The notes under the pieces were generated by a model. The model worked only from the letters and a program-made list of their open reading frames with translations, was not told the DNA's origin and ran no database searches. The position numbers and the translations under genes are program-made. Shown one piece after another: positions 7,226-25,831 of a stretch of 38,935 nucleotides of DNA (positions are counted from its first letter, which is position 1; every line of letters starts with the position of its first letter). This stretch comes from Planctomycetota bacterium. GTDB lineage: Bacteria > Planctomycetota > UBA8108 > UBA1146. Location of the stretch: positions 1-38,935 of the forward strand of contig JAPKAM010000013.1 in assembly GCA_028825265.1 (NCBI GenBank), read 5' to 3'.

Positions 7226-7966
7226 TCAAGGAGACCGGGTATTCCCCTGCCAACAGATCTGAAATAGGACCCCCGATTCGCCACCGCTTTCGAGGTTTGC
7301 CGTCAGCAAAAATCTCAGACTATGGCAGTGGAAGGGCGAAAGTGTGTCGAGCCCGAGAGTGGCGCGGATTCCTCCCCGATTTGAGTTCCGCGAGTCGCTT
7401 TCGGCTCCCCAGCGGGTCCAGGGGAGCACCTCGAAGTAGGGGAAATAGACCTCCTCAACAGTCTTAGCGCTGGTTCCATATCGCTCTGCAGCGCCAAGAT
7501 GAGCCGCGATCCGGTCGCTGGGAGGCCCGACGAAGGGCCCGTCGAGCAGCGGGTCGTCGAGGCCCAGGTCGAATCCTCCAAAGGAGCCGTAAGAGATGTA
7601 CTGGTGCTGCTGTCCGCTGCGATAGCCGCTTCCACTGATCTGGGCCATCTCGGAACCGTATCCTCCCGCACCGTACTCCGGGTCGTTGAGCAGATGTTCT
7701 CGGAGCACTCCACGGACCGTTTGTGCAATCACCTCGGAGCGGATGTGGGAATTCCATTCCAGGCTAGAATCCACCAGGGAGGATCCAAATAGCGCAGGAT
7801 GCTGATCCCCCTGGCTGATCGCTCGGTGAACCTCGGTGGGCAGGGTCCTGGCCCACTGTCCATCGCCCTGGATCTCCAGCAATGAAGGAGGAGGGGCCAG
7901 GGAGACTCTTCCGGAGGGGTGCAGAGCGGTCGCCAGTAGCAGAAAGAGGGCAGTGGCTGTATTCAT
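7226..7966 (-). CDS. Hypothetical exported protein
   Basis: Signal peptide MNTATALFLLLATALHPSGRVSLA; no family recognised; antisense frames lack coding character. Confidence 0.6.
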   Translation of the reverse strand: MNTATALFLLLATALHPSGRVSLAPPPSLLEIQGDGQWARTLPTEVHRAISQGDQHPALFGSSLVDSSLEWNSHIRSEVIAQTVRGVLREHLLNDPEYGAGGYGSEMAQISGSGYRSGQQHQYISYGSFGGFDLGLDDPLLDGPFVGPPSDRIAAHLGAAERYGTSAKTVEEVYFPYFEVLPWTRWGAESDSRNSNRGGIRATLGLDTLSPFHCHSLRFLLTANLESGGESGVLFQICWQGNTRSP

Positions 7967-8191
7967 CGACGACCTCAATTCAGGAACCTCGGGGAGTCCC
8001 TGGGTCATCGCGCACGTTCGAGACCTGACTCCCCCTGGAGTCTGGATCGGCACGATCAGGGTAAATCTGAGCAGGATTCAGGAAATCATTACCGGAAGCG
8101 ATACCCGGAGGATGACTCGTGAAATTCCAGTGATGTGAACGGGCGGCCACCAAACCCCATCATCACGCTGCAGATGAGAGAACCGATGAGG

Positions 8192-8288
8192 GGAGCCCAG
8201 GGGCCTTCGGCGGAAGCCGGAGGGGTTCCTAGATGCCTTCGGAGAGCTTCATGGGCGCTTTCGAGGGTTTCACTTTATCCGTGAAACC
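8192..8288. other. Cluster of three hairpins in intergenic region (candidate structured RNA, strand uncertain)
   Basis: GGAGCC(CAGGGG)CCTTCGGC-GGAA-GCCGGAGG-GGTTCC; GAGAGC-N9-GCTTTC; GGTTTCAC-TTTATCC-GTGAAACC. Confidence 0.4.
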
Positions 8289-8370
8289 AGCAGGTGATTG
8301 GGGTCAGTGAATCCTAAGGAGCGGTGTCCCTGTCTCGATGGTACCGCAAGCCTAGAAAAGGGGAAGCCCG

Positions 8371-8967
8371 CTATCGACCGCGACTGGCCCAGCGAACCAG
8401 TTGCTCGGCGCTCGGTTCTTCCGGATGATCTGCGACCACCTTGCGCACCCGGTCCTGAGCATCGGTCACGTGAAAACCCAGCACCTGCAAGGCTCGAACC
8501 GCATCTGCCGCAGCACCCTCGGGAACCCCCACCGTGGCCGGGGATCCGACGCTCGGCATCAGGTCCTCTTTTTCCAGCGCCCCCCTCAGATCGAGGACGA
8601 TTCGCTGGGCAGTCTTCTTGCCGATGCCCTTCACTTTCTCCAGCGGGGCCGTTTCTCCCTCCAGCACCGAGGTTCGAAGCTGGTCCGGATCGACATGGGA
8701 AAGCAGTGCCAGAGCACTGGCGGGTCCGACTCCTGACACCTGGCAGAGGCGATCGAAAAAATCGCGTTCTTCAGGATGAGAGAAACCAAACATCACCAAT
8801 TGTTCGTCACGGATCCGATGAGAGATGAACAACCTTGCGGTGACTCCATCTTTCAATTTCCGCAGAGTACCCGAGGGAGCACGGAGTCGATGGCCGACTC
8901 CCCCCACTTCGAGCACGGTATGTCCTTCAGCAATTCGGACCACTTCGCCAGTGAGGTATTCGTACAC
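8371..8967 (-). CDS. ruvA: Holliday junction branch migration protein RuvA
   Basis: 'MYEYLTGEVVRI...', HhH motifs 'LCQVSGVGPASALALLS' and 'LEKVKGIGKKTAQRIVLDLRGAL'. Confidence 0.95.
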   Translation of the reverse strand: MYEYLTGEVVRIAEGHTVLEVGGVGHRLRAPSGTLRKLKDGVTARLFISHRIRDEQLVMFGFSHPEERDFFDRLCQVSGVGPASALALLSHVDPDQLRTSVLEGETAPLEKVKGIGKKTAQRIVLDLRGALEKEDLMPSVGSPATVGVPEGAAADAVRALQVLGFHVTDAQDRVRKVVADHPEEPSAEQLVRWASRGR

Positions 8968-17961: not shown

Positions 17962-18111
17962 CATGTTGTGACACTCTCTTATTGCTGCCTGGTGCAAATC
18001 CCCGCTCGAAGTTTTCTAATCGCACCTCGATCACACCATTTCGAAACACTACAATGGCGGGGCCTGTCCAGTTGAACCATCGTGGTCAAATACGACCTCA
18101 AAAGGGAATCC

Positions 18112-20532
18112 ATGTATTATTTTGCACCACGGGTCTCGGAGATCCTTTCACTTGTTGTCACCTCCTTACTGCTGGTCTTCTCGGCCCCCCTGGGCGCCCA
18201 GTGTGATCCCGGCGGCGGCCTCGGAGGCACCGGTGCGGATGTGATCGTCGGCGAGTTGACCGGCACCCAGAGTTACGGCACGGCAGGTGGCTATTACGCC
18301 TATTCGGTGGGAACCACCTCTTGCAACATCGGCACCGAAGAATTGCTCTGGATCGCGAACACCAACCAGCACCCGGTGATCGGCCAAAACATGTTCCGTC
18401 TCAAAGACGGAGTGCTCGAACAAATCGGCATGAGTTGGCTCAAGCACGGATTCACGGCTTTGCAAGGAAACACCTGTGGTTGCGGATGCACATCTTCCGG
18501 CACCGGATCACGTCTAGGTGTCGGCTGCTCCGATCCCTACGGAGCCAGTTTGAATGGCAGCCAGGGGAGCCTCGGCGCACGGTCCGAGGTGACGGACCCG
18601 GCCCACGGCGGATTCATCTATCCGCAGATCCTCGATCCAGGAAACAATGACCTGACCTGGCGTCGCTTGCGGGTTCACGGAAGTGATCTGGATCCGGCGA
18701 TCAATAGTGCAGCGCAGTACTTCATCGAGGGACATTACGTGACCCCCGACGACTCTGCCGCAGGCAACCATCACAACAACACCAGTTACCGTCAGGTCTC
18801 GGTCTCCCCCTCGACTTCCAATCATGCCATCACCTTTCTTGGATCGACCCAGCGGCAGCAGCCGGGCATCCAGGCGTGGCAGGACAACGATCCGACTGTG
18901 ACGCTGGTCGACATCTCGGATGGAGCCGATGGACTGCTGATCCTCGGATACAAGGTCATCCAGTTGAATGCCAACTTGTGGCGTTACGAATATGCACTCT
19001 ACAACATGGACTCGACTCGCTCGGTTCGCAGTTTCTCCTTGCCTCTACTGGGTGTGATCGCCAGCGATGTGGGCTTCCGCGATGTCGAGTACCACAGTAC
19101 CGAGGTCTACGACGGAACCGACTGGGCGATGTCCACCTCCAACGGAGAAATCAACTGGTCGACTCAGACCTTCGCCCAGAACCCCAACGCCAACGCACTG
19201 CGCTGGGGAACGATGTACAACTTCCGTTTCGTGACCACCTCGCCACCCACCGCGGCCAACGCAACGCTCGGTCTGTTCCAACCCGGAGCCGGCAACACGC
19301 TGCTGGTGCCGACCGTCGCTCCAATGGTCGGCAATCTCGATTGCAACAATAACGGCATTCCAGATGCGGATGAGATCGCCAGCGGTGCATCCGATTGCGA
19401 TGGAAATGGCTTGCTCGATGAATGTCAGGAAGACTGTGACCTCGACGGAGTTGCAGACGCCTGTGAACTGATCAATGGCGCACTCGATTGCGACGGGAAT
19501 TTCATCCCCGACACTTGCCAGATCTCCTCAGGTGCAGCGGATTGCGACTTCGATGGAGTACTCGACAGTTGTGAACTCGACCTGGGAACCGCAACGGACT
19601 GTGATCTCGATGGATCTATCGACAGTTGCCAGATCTCGGCGAATCCCGCCACCGACTGCGATGGCAACGGAGTTCTCGATGTCTGTGAGGCCGCCGGGAT
19701 CTTCTCCTATGTCGACAACGTCTCTCCTCCAGCACCGATCGCCGACAATCTGCCGACAGTGATCCGGATCATCGCGGTGGATCAGGCGGGACTGGTCAAC
19801 GATCTCGATGTGGCTCTGGCCTTGACTCACACCTGGATCGGCGACCTCGCCATCTCGGTGACCAATCCTTCAGGCACCAGCGTCAACTTGCACAGCCAGA
19901 CTGGCGGATCTTCCGATGACATCAACACCATCTACGACGACGATGGTAATCCTGGAACCAGTTCTCCCGCCTCGCCGTTGTCGGCTTTCGATGGAGTCAG
20001 CGGGCTCGGCAACTGGGCCCTTTCCATCTCGGATAATGCCGGAGGAGATTCAGGTTCCCTTTTGACCTGGGGACTCGACATCTCCATCGCCGGAGCGGGA
20101 ATCCCCGACTGTGATGGCAACGGCATTCACGACGACTGTGAGATCGATGCCGCAACCGACTGTAATCTCAACGGTGTCCTCGATGCGTGTGATCTCGCTT
20201 CCGGGACCAGCACCGACAACAATGGCGATGGCACTCCCGATGAGTGTGGTGGAGGCGGTGGCGTCACCTACATCCGTGGTGACACCAACATCGATGGCAG
20301 CCACGATGTCAGCGATGCCGTCAATACTCTCGGCTTCCTCTTCAACGGATCAACGGTCACCTGCCTGGCAGCACTCGATGATAATGGGGATAACCAGGTC
20401 GACGTTTCCGATGTGGTTCACCTGATCGGATACATGTTCGCAGGTGGTCCCGAACCGACGGCTCCATTCCCCGGTTGTGGTCCCGATGGTCCCGGCGGGC
20501 TCGGATGTACTTCGTTCAGCGGTTGTCCCTGA
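18112..20532 (+). CDS. Large secreted protein with TSP3-like DxDxDG repeats, P-domain and dockerin-like C-terminus
   Basis: Signal peptide MYYFAPRVSEILSLVVTSLLLVFSAPLGAQ; 'DCDGNGLLDECQEDCDLDGVADACEL...'; P-domain 'LALTHTWIGDLAISVTNPSGTSVNLHSQTGGSSDDINTIYDD'; C-term 'RGDTNIDGSHDVSDAVNTLGFLF...CP'. Confidence 0.85.
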   Translation: MYYFAPRVSEILSLVVTSLLLVFSAPLGAQCDPGGGLGGTGADVIVGELTGTQSYGTAGGYYAYSVGTTSCNIGTEELLWIANTNQHPVIGQNMFRLKDGVLEQIGMSWLKHGFTALQGNTCGCGCTSSGTGSRLGVGCSDPYGASLNGSQGSLGARSEVTDPAHGGFIYPQILDPGNNDLTWRRLRVHGSDLDPAINSAAQYFIEGHYVTPDDSAAGNHHNNTSYRQVSVSPSTSNHAITFLGSTQRQQPGIQAWQDNDPTVTLVDISDGADGLLILGYKVIQLNANLWRYEYALYNMDSTRSVRSFSLPLLGVIASDVGFRDVEYHSTEVYDGTDWAMSTSNGEINWSTQTFAQNPNANALRWGTMYNFRFVTTSPPTAANATLGLFQPGAGNTLLVPTVAPMVGNLDCNNNGIPDADEIASGASDCDGNGLLDECQEDCDLDGVADACELINGALDCDGNFIPDTCQISSGAADCDFDGVLDSCELDLGTATDCDLDGSIDSCQISANPATDCDGNGVLDVCEAAGIFSYVDNVSPPAPIADNLPTVIRIIAVDQAGLVNDLDVALALTHTWIGDLAISVTNPSGTSVNLHSQTGGSSDDINTIYDDDGNPGTSSPASPLSAFDGVSGLGNWALSISDNAGGDSGSLLTWGLDISIAGAGIPDCDGNGIHDDCEIDAATDCNLNGVLDACDLASGTSTDNNGDGTPDECGGGGGVTYIRGDTNIDGSHDVSDAVNTLGFLFNGSTVTCLAALDDNGDNQVDVSDVVHLIGYMFAGGPEPTAPFPGCGPDGPGGLGCTSFSGCP

Positions 20533-20731: not shown

Positions 20732-23146
20732 GTGACCCGTTTTCACCAATTACTCCAGCTCTCCCTATCGTCGATCCTGCTCTCCCTATCGTCGATCCTG
20801 GCCACTCCCTTACTGGCCCAGGATCCAGCCATCTTGACCAGCATCTCCAGTCCCCTCGATGACCATCACTACCTGTTGCTGGATGCCAGCGACTGGACCA
20901 CTGCCGAGGCTCGCGCCAACAGTTGGGGAGGCAACCTCGTGGCGGTCGGAGATGTGGTGGAGATGGAATTCATCGAGGAGAACTTCAGTACCTTTGACGG
21001 CACCGGCCGGCGCCTGTGGTTGGGTCTCAACGACATTGCTGTCGAGGGCGTCTACGAGTGGAGTAACGGTGAACCGCTGGTGTACACCAACTGGAATGTA
21101 GGGGAGCCCAACAACTCCAACAACGAGGACATGGGCCACACCCTCGCGACCACTCCATTTCTGTGGAACGACATCAGCGAGATCAACAACAATGTTAGTA
21201 CCTTCGGCCTCGTCGAACTGGAGCCGTGTGGGATCAGCGCACCTGACGCTCTGGAAGCGACCTCCGTCGGTCCCGATATCACCCTAGTGTTCACCAACAA
21301 TGGTCCCTACACCGATACTTTTGAAATCTGGCGTGACGGTGTCTTCTACCAGGATATTGCCGATCCCGCCGCCACCAGTTGGACCGACCTCAATCTTTGC
21401 CAGGGGGTCTACTCCTATCTGATCGTGGTCTCTGACGGAGCCTGTTTCGATTTCTCCGACCGAACTGAAGTCCCCCATGGATTTGAAATCTACGGCAGTC
21501 TCGACACGCCACTGGCGATTCCCAACAGCACTCCGACGGGAGTCACCTCGGTGATCAACATCACGGACAACTTCCTGATCCAGGATGTCGACATCGAGAT
21601 CCATATCACTCACACCTGGACTCGAGAAGTGGGGATCGACCTGATGCACCCATCGGCGACGATGGTGACCCTGAAGCAGTTCGTCGTCGGATCTCCTAGT
21701 GATGTGAATCACATTCACACCGTCTTTGATGATCAGGGAATCCCCTTCGACGAGGATCAGATTCCGCTCTACCTCCACATGCAACCGCAGGGGCCTGGCA
21801 CCCTCGCCGATCTTGCAGGCCTTCCCATCGATGGTGACTGGCGTCTGACAGTGACGGACTACACTGGAGGCGAGTTTGGCGATCTCGAAACTTGGGCCAT
21901 CCACCACCGCAGTGCCCCCCCCTGTCAAATCACTCCGCCACTCGCCTTTACGGCCGTCACCAATGGTAATGAAGTGACTCTCAGCTGGGATATCAACGGC
22001 AACATCTTCACCAGCATCGATGTCTATCGTGACGGACAACTCGCCGCGACCTTACCCGGAGGCGATCAGCAGTGGACCGATGTCCTTCCCGCGGGCCCCG
22101 CTGCTTACCAGTATCAGCTTCGCTGCTGGGACGACGCGGTCACCCCCTGCTGTGTCATCGATGGAAATGCCATCTGGGCGCTGATCAATGCCATCGATCT
22201 GGTGTGGGCCGCTGAAGGGAGTGGTGGTCAGATCGATTCGGCACTCGCCATCTCCGCTGCTCTGGTGGTCAATGGACTCGCACCGGCACTGATGACAGAC
22301 ATCCTCGATTGCGATTGCCTGCTCGATACACCGACCCTCGAGCGGGTCTGGGTGGCCTCGGGAACCTATCCCGATCACCATTGCTTGACGATTGCCGAGG
22401 GTCAGTTACTCGCAGATCTGATCGCCAATGGCATCGATGTGTACATCGAGGGTGGTGATGTGTGGGGATTTTGTGGCCAGACTCCTCTCGCAGACTATGA
22501 CGGCATCGGACTGGGAGTGGTCGACGGCGACGACTCGTTCCTGGAGATGATCGGGGATTCCTATGCCACGCTCAATCTGACCGGGATGGATGCCGCATAC
22601 AACCAGGACCAGGCGGCCAGCGACTGGACCGATCGACTGGTCACCGCAGATCCCCTCACGCCCGACCTAGCAGGAGCATCGAGCGGCTCCATCTGGGTCC
22701 AATCGGGCATCGGATACAGCACCGGCAACTTCTACGAAACCGATGACCCCTTTGGAGAGGTGATCGCGCAGTCGTGGGAGTTCGGTGGCTATGGCGCCGA
22801 GCAGGGTGTCCTGATGGGACTCTACCTCGATGCGCTGGGAGCCAGCAGCGGTCCGCCACAGGAACTGTTCCGCCGTGGTGATGTCAATGTCGATGGCGGT
22901 GTCAACATCGCCGATGCCATCCGCCTGCTCAACGCCCTGTTCGTGCCTGGAACTCCCCAGCCCGATTGCTACGACAGTGCCGACGTCAATGACGATGGTG
23001 CCGCGAACGTCGCGGATGCGGTTTTCCTGCTCAATGCACTGTTTGTACCAGGATCGGCAAATCCACCGGCGCCGGGAGCTCTCGACTGCGGAATCGATCC
23101 GACCGCTGACGCTTTTGATTGCGCTCTGTACCTCGGCTGTCCCTGA
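20732..23146 (+). CDS. Secreted protein with C-type lectin-like domain, P-domain and dockerin-like C-terminus (GTG start)
   Basis: GAGGAGG RBS then GTG; CTLD 'HYLLLDASDWTTAEARANSWGGNLVAVGD...RLWLGLNDIAVEGVYEWSNGEPLVYTNWNVGEPNN'; P-domain 'VDIEIHITHTWTREVGIDLMHPSATMVTLKQ'; C-term 'RRGDVNVDGGVNIADAIRLLNALF...CP'. Confidence 0.85.
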   Translation: MTRFHQLLQLSLSSILLSLSSILATPLLAQDPAILTSISSPLDDHHYLLLDASDWTTAEARANSWGGNLVAVGDVVEMEFIEENFSTFDGTGRRLWLGLNDIAVEGVYEWSNGEPLVYTNWNVGEPNNSNNEDMGHTLATTPFLWNDISEINNNVSTFGLVELEPCGISAPDALEATSVGPDITLVFTNNGPYTDTFEIWRDGVFYQDIADPAATSWTDLNLCQGVYSYLIVVSDGACFDFSDRTEVPHGFEIYGSLDTPLAIPNSTPTGVTSVINITDNFLIQDVDIEIHITHTWTREVGIDLMHPSATMVTLKQFVVGSPSDVNHIHTVFDDQGIPFDEDQIPLYLHMQPQGPGTLADLAGLPIDGDWRLTVTDYTGGEFGDLETWAIHHRSAPPCQITPPLAFTAVTNGNEVTLSWDINGNIFTSIDVYRDGQLAATLPGGDQQWTDVLPAGPAAYQYQLRCWDDAVTPCCVIDGNAIWALINAIDLVWAAEGSGGQIDSALAISAALVVNGLAPALMTDILDCDCLLDTPTLERVWVASGTYPDHHCLTIAEGQLLADLIANGIDVYIEGGDVWGFCGQTPLADYDGIGLGVVDGDDSFLEMIGDSYATLNLTGMDAAYNQDQAASDWTDRLVTADPLTPDLAGASSGSIWVQSGIGYSTGNFYETDDPFGEVIAQSWEFGGYGAEQGVLMGLYLDALGASSGPPQELFRRGDVNVDGGVNIADAIRLLNALFVPGTPQPDCYDSADVNDDGAANVADAVFLLNALFVPGSANPPAPGALDCGIDPTADAFDCALYLGCP
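20759..20800 (+). repeat. Perfect 21-bp tandem duplication (CTCTCCCTATCGTCGATCCTG x2) within signal peptide
   Basis: Direct reading; encodes LSLSSIL-LSLSSIL. Confidence 0.95.
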
Positions 23147-24750
23147 TGAAAAGCAGGATGGTCGACCACTGCCAGCACCCGAGGCGAACCATCGTTGGCA
23201 TTCTCGCATCGCTTGTGCTGCTCTGCTGCACCGTGATGTCCTCGGCTCAGGTGATCCTGCACAGCGATGAGATGGCCTCGTCTGGATCGAATACCTCGCA
23301 CAACATGGTTCGTGATAACGAGGGCGTGCTTCACTGTGTATCTCTGGAGCGAAATGCCGCCGACGAGATGGCTCTGATTGTCCAGAGTTCCTCGGATGGA
23401 GGTGCCACCTGGTGGACCCAGCCGCCCAATCTCAACGACGACGACAGTGGCCTGTTCGATCCGGATCCCGCCAGCCAGTGCTCGGTGGCCATCGACGACC
23501 AGGGGATCCTGCACGTACTCTGGGGTCGGTACAGCTACCCGTCGTACTTTCGGCAGTTTTACCGCCGCTTCGATCCCGCCACCGGCGACCGTTCCGACAT
23601 CATCGAGATCAGCACCATCACCGGTGCCCCACTCAATGCTCGCACCTCGGCGATGGACATCGTCATCGATGGCAACAACACGGTATGGATCTCGGGGCAC
23701 CACCCCTCCAGCTGGGTCGAGCACCTGCTGCGCAGCGATCAGCCCTACGCGGCAGATGATTCCTTCACCGACCTAGGGGCTTTCAGTCCCTCGGCCAGTG
23801 CCCAGAACACGCGTCTGGCGGTCGATGACAGCGGCCGCATCCATTGCAGTTTTTATCGCAACACCCCACCGGGGGTCTACGAGCACCGTATCTACGACCC
23901 GACCATCGGACCCGCGGGGGCCGCCGGCTGGCAGGCAGATCCCTTCGTGCTCGGCAATACCACCGGCAGCAATGACTACTTCGGCTGGCTCTCCAGCGAT
24001 GCGCTTGGAAATGTGCACAGTGCCTATGTCGTCGACGCCGCCTCCGGCTCGCCGCTGTGGAGTTTCCGCTACCGCAGGTGGGATGAAAGCAATGGCTGGA
24101 GTGACGAGACATCTCTGTTCGATGCCACCAGCGACCAGTTCACCGGAATCGCCAGCTACAAGATCTTCAACATCGGCTGTGATGAGACCTCGGGCACGGT
24201 CCATGCCGTGTACCGGGACCTCGCCAACGAAGGCTCTCTGGTGCTGGCACGGAAACTCGCCACATCTCCCGAGTTCGAGTTCGTCGAGCAGTTACAACCG
24301 ACCACACTCGGCCAACACGCCTACATCTATCCGACCATCCGAGGCTCGCTGTATCCCGCCTTCAACAACACATCCTTCGGCCTCGATATCACCTACCAGC
24401 TGCGCGAAAATCCGGGGGTCCCGCCCTATTCACTGATCTATCACGACGCTTCCGCTGGATCAGTGATTCGATTCATCCGTGGTGATGGCAACGAGGACGG
24501 CAGTTTCAATGTCGCGGACATCGTGTTCGGACTCAATGCGCTATTCGTGCCGGGAGGGGTATCTCCGAATTGCATCGAGAGTTGCGATATCAACGACGAT
24601 GCTAGTTTCAACATCGCAGACATGGTCTACGGATTGAATGCACTCTTTGTGCCCGGGTCTACGCCTCCGGATGCTCCCTACCCGACCTGCGGAGCCGACC
24701 CGCTCGCCAACACTCTCGACTGCCCGACCACCAGCGCTGCTTGCCCCTGA
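23146..24750 (+). CDS. Secreted BNR/sialidase-like repeat protein with dockerin-like C-terminus
   Basis: ATG overlaps preceding stop (TGATG); Asp-box-like 'SSSDGGATWW'; 'VAIDDQGILHVLWGRYS', 'LAVDDSGRIHCSFYR'; C-term 'RGDGNEDGSFNVADIVFGLNALF...CP'. Confidence 0.75.
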   Translation: MKSRMVDHCQHPRRTIVGILASLVLLCCTVMSSAQVILHSDEMASSGSNTSHNMVRDNEGVLHCVSLERNAADEMALIVQSSSDGGATWWTQPPNLNDDDSGLFDPDPASQCSVAIDDQGILHVLWGRYSYPSYFRQFYRRFDPATGDRSDIIEISTITGAPLNARTSAMDIVIDGNNTVWISGHHPSSWVEHLLRSDQPYAADDSFTDLGAFSPSASAQNTRLAVDDSGRIHCSFYRNTPPGVYEHRIYDPTIGPAGAAGWQADPFVLGNTTGSNDYFGWLSSDALGNVHSAYVVDAASGSPLWSFRYRRWDESNGWSDETSLFDATSDQFTGIASYKIFNIGCDETSGTVHAVYRDLANEGSLVLARKLATSPEFEFVEQLQPTTLGQHAYIYPTIRGSLYPAFNNTSFGLDITYQLRENPGVPPYSLIYHDASAGSVIRFIRGDGNEDGSFNVADIVFGLNALFVPGGVSPNCIESCDINDDASFNIADMVYGLNALFVPGSTPPDAPYPTCGADPLANTLDCPTTSAACP

Positions 24751-24771: not shown

Positions 24772-25704
24772 TCAGTTGGCGTGATCGTAGAGCGCCTTCT
24801 TGAACGCAGGGATGTCCTTGTAGTGATCCCAGAATCGATATAGCAACTGGTCGCTGGCATCGATGATGAGCAGATCTCCGGGCCAACTGGCTCGGTACTT
24901 CTTGACGATCTCCAACTGAGATCGACCATCGATTTTGATCCGGATGTAATCGTGGAGCAGGCCTGCGATCTCATCATCTTGTGTCAGCAAGCGCTCGATC
25001 CGGGTCGACTGACCACATCGATTCGCCTCGATGAAAATCAGTCGAGTCTTCGAGGTCCTCTCCGATTCCTCGACTCCTTCGTCATATTCGAGCCAACGGA
25101 TGGGAATCGGCGGCGGTTCGACTCCGGCCTGACGCAACAGACGGTCGAGCCAGGGACGCTGATCGTCGTTCGACTCGGAAGCACGAGGCAGGATCCCCTG
25201 CCAGATCACCTTGCCTCTGGTATCGAGGAAAAAGGCCGATGGGAAACCCTTCACTCCGTGACGCTCCAGGTTGCTGGACTGCTCCGACAGGATGGGGAAG
25301 GTCACTTGGTGCTTGTCGATGTATTGCTGGACCAGTTCTGGTTGCTTGGACGAGTCACTGAAGACGGTCATCATCGAGAAGAACTCGGGGCCCACTTCTT
25401 GTCGCCACCTGACCAGGCTGGGCAATGCCGGAGCACAACTCTCTCAGCCAGGAATCGTATAGGCGACCAGCAGCGGCTTGCCGCGCCCCAATACAGCGAG
25501 CGGCGAGACCGCGACTGAAAGGCCCTTCGTGGCGTTGAACCAGCGATCGCCCTGCTCGAGTTTCAACTCCGGCAGTGGCTTTCCCATCGACGAGAAGTGG
25601 AACTGCATCGAAGTGGGTTCCTGAGCGGCCTCCTGGGCATCCTGGGCCACCAGGGAACTCGAGGAGAGGGACAGGGCGATCAGCAATGTCTTCCATCGGT
25701 TCAT
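24772..25704 (-). CDS. Putative selenoprotein: thioredoxin-like protein with UxxC motif (in-frame TGA at 25444-25446 read as Sec) plus second Trx-like domain
   Basis: ORFs 25444..25704 and 24772..25425 share one frame; 'PLLVAYTIPG-[TGA]-ESCAPALPSLVRW...VTFPILSEQSSNLERHGVKGFPSAFFLDTRGKVIWQG' matches a TlpA/ResA-like fold with TGA in place of the first Cys. Confidence 0.8.
25404..25438 (-). promoter_or_regulatory. Candidate bacterial SECIS element immediately 3' of the UGA
   Basis: RNA GCCCAGCCU-GGUC-AGGUGGC: GCC/GGC, A-U and CCU/AGG pairs with bulges, apical loop GGUC at nt 30-33 after UGA; outer UUGU/ACAA possible in an alternative fold. Confidence 0.55.
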
Positions 25705-25774
25705 CCGAGGTCTCCTCCCTCAGCGGACGCTATCCGCCCACGCACCGTTCCCATCCTTGCCACCGATCTCGAAA

Positions 25775-25809
25775 AAGAACGGCCCCGAGGAAACCCCGGG
25801 GCCGTTCTT
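25775..25809 (-). terminator. Intrinsic terminator of MFS gene
   Basis: AAGAACGGCCCC-N11-GGGGCCGTTCTT; minus strand followed by T-rich TTTC. Confidence 0.8.
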
Positions 25810-25831
25810 CTCATTCGTTCCCAGATCAGAG

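Follow-up and report, generated by a model that had tools for sequence, protein, structure and literature searches.

Does the TGA that divides a minus-strand reading frame in this stretch of planctomycete DNA end a gene, or is it translated? The stretch analysed (the window, 38,935 nucleotides) is contig C148 of assembly G000, a planctomycete genome of 2.98 Mb that is 90% complete. We find it almost certain that an apparently broken gene of a marine planctomycete is in fact whole and encodes an exported selenocysteine (Sec) redox protein, and judging from sequence we put the probability that the UGA of codon 87 is read as Sec at about 95%.

A single frame with one internal UGA

Read with TGA as a residue, the minus-strand frame from 25704 to 24772 has 310 codons, and its lone internal stop is the TGA of codon 87 (25446-25444). 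The terminal stop, at 24774-24772, is also a TGA, and a GGAGG lies immediately 5' of the ATG. The initial annotation had described two open reading frames sharing one frame with no further stop between these limits, and translation of the full frame agrees, coordinates included. The "ORF start" at 25425 is a TTG, a Leu codon inside the gene, so that a separate gene start is unnecessary. Table 11 ORF calling does divide the gene at codon 87, as had been predicted of ORF callers; with the protein split in two, the family is easily overlooked in routine annotation. The active-site motif reads U87-E-S-C90-A-P-A-L-P95 (UESC), with the proline five residues past C90 as originally proposed.

24772..25704, minus strand: predicted selenoprotein gene of 310 residues, complete from its ATG to the final TGA and containing a single in-frame UGA (translation, upstream GGAGG, orthologues in five genomes)
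25444..25446, minus strand: UGA predicted to encode Sec as the attacking redox residue (TGA constant in six orthologues; Sec or Cys aligned in 20 homologues)

The UGA is conserved and selection continues beyond it

Orthologues were found in five relatives (recorded as Planctomycetota bacterium UBA1146, SI037S4_bin26, SZUA-1234 and others): three from the same genus, at 83-85% identity, and two from other genera, at 55% and 43%. The locus is syntenic across the relatives that carry it. Each orthologue contains a single in-frame TGA, always at the corresponding codon (6/6 with the window gene), so the argument that this position is not random now extends over five relatives and three genera with no other internal stop. 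Sequencing error is excluded in practice because the codon is present in six separately assembled genomes. Purifying selection acts both before and after the TGA: dN/dS is below 1 on both sides in every orthologue pair, and lies at 0.14-0.59 downstream. For the most distant orthologues dS is about 1.5-2, and the constant TGA has thus outlasted near-saturation of synonymous sites. In the wider alignment of 20 homologues C90 and P155 are constant and residue 87 is exclusively Sec or Cys, which upholds the earlier placement of the TGA at the attacking redox cysteine.

A true stop or nonsense mutation, leaving a pseudogene or two cistrons of 86 and 217 aa with a restart at the TTG of 25425, would account for the split made by Table 11 callers and for a TTG shortly downstream of the TGA, but is extremely improbable given that six genomes keep the TGA without a second disabling change, that purifying selection persists past it, that the cut would separate two active-site residues of one domain and leave a first product without a redox motif, and that the Cys homologues translate through in a single frame.

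The Sec gene was not found in g4 and g5, two genera that belong to the same family. In genome G002 the neighbouring dockerin-type gene is present as a partial copy at the extreme end of a contig, so the missing Sec gene may be an assembly effect there. No homologues were found in plasmids.

A nearly invariant hairpin follows the UGA

25403..25424, minus strand: predicted SECIS hairpin UGCC-CA-GCCU-[GGUC]-AGGU-GGCG (core constant in the six orthologues as well as in eight distant Sec homologues, lacking in Cys homologues, within published bSECIS constraints)

The hairpin downstream of the UGA, CCUGGUCAGGUGG, presents a GGUC loop (25414-25411) exactly 29 nt past that codon; the initial annotation had made no mention of it. 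All six orthologues have UGCC-NN-RCCU-[GGUC]-AGGU-GGC, and among them this core is the longest constant nucleotide run in the gene, at 14 nt versus 9 or fewer elsewhere. As drawn in Fig 2A of PMC13188914, the bSECIS model has a loop of 3-9 nt beginning with G and then G/U, a stem of 4-16 bp, a distance of 16-37 nt from the UGA and an energy of -7.5 kcal/mol or lower. The window hairpin falls inside every one of these limits (loop GGUC, upper stem of 4 bp, 29 nt, -8.8 kcal/mol). Taken alone the model is loose and accepts 25% of the window's 1253 background TGAs, whereas a GGUC loop above four stem pairs at the right distance occurs at 0.3% of them.

A profile search of 392 planctomycete genomes provided a wider homologue set. 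Eight TGA-bearing homologues of domain 1, belonging to five other families, carry CAC CUG GUC AGG UGG without a single substitution and equally far from the UGA, whereas the corresponding stretch in the Cys homologues L101 and L106 reads CAU CAG ACC CGG UGG and UAC CUG AAG CAG UGG and the hairpin is missing. The tripeptide LVR is encoded as CUG GUC AGG in 8/8 of these Sec homologues; from codon use, uncorrected for relatedness, 0.017 per gene would be expected. Across the 392 genomes, the pattern TGA-N26-CCTGGTCAGGTGG has 19 matches in 18 genomes and its reversed form has none, and among the matches listed 18/19 continue from the TGA to xxC or xxU. One match (L111), a very short frame without UxxC context, was set aside.

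In folding energy the window hairpin does not outperform shuffled sequence (z 0.18), and covariation across the hairpin is weak because the core hardly varies; neither was counted as evidence for the hairpin. With three orthologues alone, a synonymous-site test did not reach significance (p 0.10-0.14), and the wider homologue set was used instead. By conservation, position and the contrast between Sec and Cys forms, the GGUC hairpin is the predicted Sec insertion signal. Its near-identity across distant planctomycete families offers a 16-letter signature for finding further members and clearly illustrates how a protein sequence can be constrained by a signal in the RNA, with "LVRW" as the footprint.

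Some Sec homologues lack the GGUC hairpin and have a different downstream sequence, among them L104, L107, L109 and others of the WATWUGPC group. A second widespread planctomycete ResA-like group (L047, L050, L051, L053, L067, L068, L104, L109) has an in-frame TGA within WATWUGPC or WASWUGPC; the hairpins that follow differ, and most members have a long C-terminal extension. Elsewhere, the homologues L098 (G258) and L108 (G195) have a UDTU active site in which three residues separate one Sec codon from the next, and the SECIS of the window gene follows it.

Selenium machinery of the genome

The initial annotation had pointed to selA, selB, selD and selC as the genes to look for, and all but selB were recovered. 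In G000, selA (527 bits), selD (350 bits) and a tRNA-Sec with anticodon TCA (70 bits) adjoin one another on contig C47. The selD is itself a Sec gene, with an in-frame TGA in ASCAGUAAKLPP and a hairpin, ACCU-GGUCG-AGGU, that has the GGUC apical motif of the window gene and a loop starting 26 nt after the UGA. It occupies about 7604-8690 on the minus strand of C47 (L070), and the standard ORF call begins past its TGA.

A profile search of the assembly, which is nine-tenths complete, did not find selB, while 19/20 genomes searched have it above cut-off, G000 being the lone exception. Among other genomes of the genus the selB region (4.9 kb) is 87-95% alike; used as a query against G000, the region from a same-genus genome gave no match, flanks included (about 5 kb). 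DNA at this distance is alignable, as the Sec gene locus itself shows (88.8% alike), and the flanks are gone too, which makes an assembly gap more likely than gene loss. The best weak selB match in G000, a 402-aa frame of EF-Tu size, is not SelB, and neither is a candidate on contig C93, which has a domain 2 of EF-G type and is an ordinary translation GTPase.

The missing selB would also fit insertion of another amino acid (Trp, Gly or Arg) through a reassigned code or leaky termination. We consider this scarcely credible: TGA still serves as a stop, being the terminal codon of the window gene and of three orthologues; homologues show Cys or TGA alone at the site; tRNA-Sec, SelA and SelD are encoded in the genome; and the hairpin accompanies the TGA forms and not the two Cys forms.

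Two thioredoxin-like domains in one probably exported protein

25645..25704, minus strand: MNRWKTLLIALSLSSSSLVA, a hydrophobic stretch at the N-terminus that is likely a signal peptide for export (by eye; alike in all orthologues)
25183..25584, minus strand: domain 1, residues 41-174, AhpC-TSA/Redoxin/TlpA-type thioredoxin fold with U87-E-S-C90 and a cis-Pro-like P155 (Pfam, PDB profile matches, AlphaFold)
24781..25095, minus strand: domain 2, residues 204-308, Thioredoxin_7-type fold (PF13899 in all six, PDB 2kuc, AlphaFold pLDDT about 90)
25006..25017, minus strand: CxxS motif C230-G-Q-S233 of domain 2 (C230 and S233 constant in six orthologues; Sec at the matching place in L099)

The hydrophobic N-terminus is likely to be an export signal peptide. 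Domain 1 matches AhpC-TSA, Redoxin and Thioredoxin_2 in Pfam and StoA and ResA among PDB profiles. An AlphaFold model built with 20 sequences has two thioredoxin folds and a mean pLDDT of 85, and supersedes an earlier six-sequence model in which domain 1 was poor (mean pLDDT 63). In the newer model domain 1 reaches a pLDDT of about 90 and a target-normalised TM of 0.72-0.80 against ResA. The thioredoxin fold, the C(U)xxC motif and a conserved proline before the fourth strand place it in the ResA/TlpA-type fold class. At the level of named families the scores stay below cut-off for ResA (NF002854, 24.8 vs 170 bits) and StoA (NF041202, 27.1 vs 210 bits), and no NCBIfam model reaches its cut-off with this protein.

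Could the selenoprotein reduce peroxides, as a peroxiredoxin-like enzyme, rather than reduce or isomerise disulfides? The AhpC-TSA and Redoxin matches of domain 1 lend this some weight, yet we regard it as unlikely. Peroxiredoxins carry a TxxC/TxxU motif, which differs from UxxC; the spacing of UxxC is that of disulfide oxidoreductases, and the model's best structural matches (DipZ, ResA, DsbE and CcmG) are of this type too. PMC13188914 likewise gives TxxU for peroxiredoxins.

The suggestion of a second, C-terminal thioredoxin-like domain with CxxS also held: domain 2 matches PF13899 at 35 bits against a gathering score of 27 (E 1.6e-8), a family match shared by all six orthologues, and contains CGQS at C230-S233. 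Its PDB profile match is 2kuc, a putative disulphide isomerase. A candidate tandem Sec thioredoxin, L099 (G106, 1426-1980 onward, minus strand), has two in-frame TGAs and two fused thioredoxin domains with UGSC in each, the frame running through the second TGA into a Thioredoxin_7 domain. Sec in that domain supports a redox role for the matching Cys230. Both second domains match PF13899; in profile comparison the L099 domain 2 failed to align with that of the window protein, and its best match was domain 1. Another homologue, L121, has a similar-looking C-terminal extension with neither a Cys at the place of C230 nor a Pfam match.

Relation to known families

The window protein resembles ResA, StoA, TlpA and DsbE (AhpC-TSA, Redoxin; PDB 3erw, 1st9, 3gl3) in fold, conserved-Pro spacing and predicted export. 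It differs from them in having Sec for the first Cys, with PGUESC instead of the usual WC-PC type, in its fused second thioredoxin-like domain and in scoring far under the NCBIfam cut-offs. Bacterial thioredoxin-like selenoproteins with UxxC are a known kind, mostly predicted. In the main family lists of PMC13188914 and PMC9312934 they include a Prx-like thiol:disulfide oxidoreductase (PF00578), a thiol:disulfide interchange protein (PF13098), a thiol-disulfide isomerase-like family (cd02966) and a redoxin family (PF08534). The window protein shares with these the Sec in UxxC and the domain families; unlike it, the tabulated families have no fusion to a Thioredoxin_7 CxxS domain.

Two other Sec families each share a feature with it. 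The Trx7/PDZ domain selenoprotein (NF041199) has a Thioredoxin_7 domain, but with CxxU and a PDZ domain as listed in PMC13188914, whereas the window protein has its Sec in the other domain and CxxS in domain 2. The WAxxUGC_long selenoprotein (NF041054) is a ResA-like Sec protein that one orthologue matches weakly (E 2.3e-8); its motif is UGC and not UxxC, and no match comes near the 300-bit cut-off.

Sec use in planctomycetes has already been reported (PMC4807772); the main lists of PMC13188914 and PMC9312934 make no mention of the phylum. A fusion of a Sec-TlpA domain with Thioredoxin_7 is not among the families in those main lists. Judged against them, what is new is this fusion, with predicted Sec in both domains in one relative, together with the near-invariant SECIS and its protein footprint "LVRW". 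We give even odds to the broader proposal of an unlisted planctomycete selenoprotein family in which Thioredoxin_7 would act as a built-in redox partner of Sec-TlpA (through C230, or through Sec in the UGSC/UGSC tandem of L099), and whose SECIS, nearly unchanged to the letter and always 29 nt away, would spread with it, the RNA dictating LVRW in the active-site helix.

Proposed function

The locus would encode one exported selenoprotein of 310 residues, periplasmic or at the surface. SelA, SelB, SelD and tRNA-Sec would decode codon 87 as Sec, steered by the GGUC-loop hairpin 29 nt downstream. Domain 1 would be a ResA/TlpA-type thiol-disulfide oxidoreductase in which U87 attacks a disulfide or other oxidised substrate and C90 resolves the adduct; an electron donor in the membrane or periplasm would then return the U87/C90 selenenylsulfide to its reduced form. 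In domain 2, whose CxxS retains one conserved Cys, C230 might form a transient mixed disulfide, serving as a relay or to hold the substrate. For the substrate, the redox partner, the localisation and the part played by domain 2 we draw on family knowledge. Overall we propose that the protein works outside the cytoplasm on disulfides or oxidised thiols, reducing or isomerising them, with U87/C90 recharged in this way and C230 as an accessory mixed-disulfide or relay site; the proposal could fall either way. A single chain that pairs a Sec and a Cys thioredoxin in tandem would allow Sec recycling by the next domain to be tested.

Genomic surroundings

Upstream, a GC-rich inverted repeat followed by TTCTTTTTC (25772-25810, minus strand) lies between an MFS transporter gene and the Sec gene. 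It resembles a terminator, which suggests that the Sec gene may form its own transcription unit. The window also encodes several large secreted proteins, at 141-2615, 18082-20532, 20732-23146 and 23119-24750, with dockerin-like repeats (GDxNxDGxxxxxD) in pairs at their ends and a CP tail at the C-terminus. One dockerin-repeat gene is convergent with the Sec gene, and repeat DNA is common to some of them.
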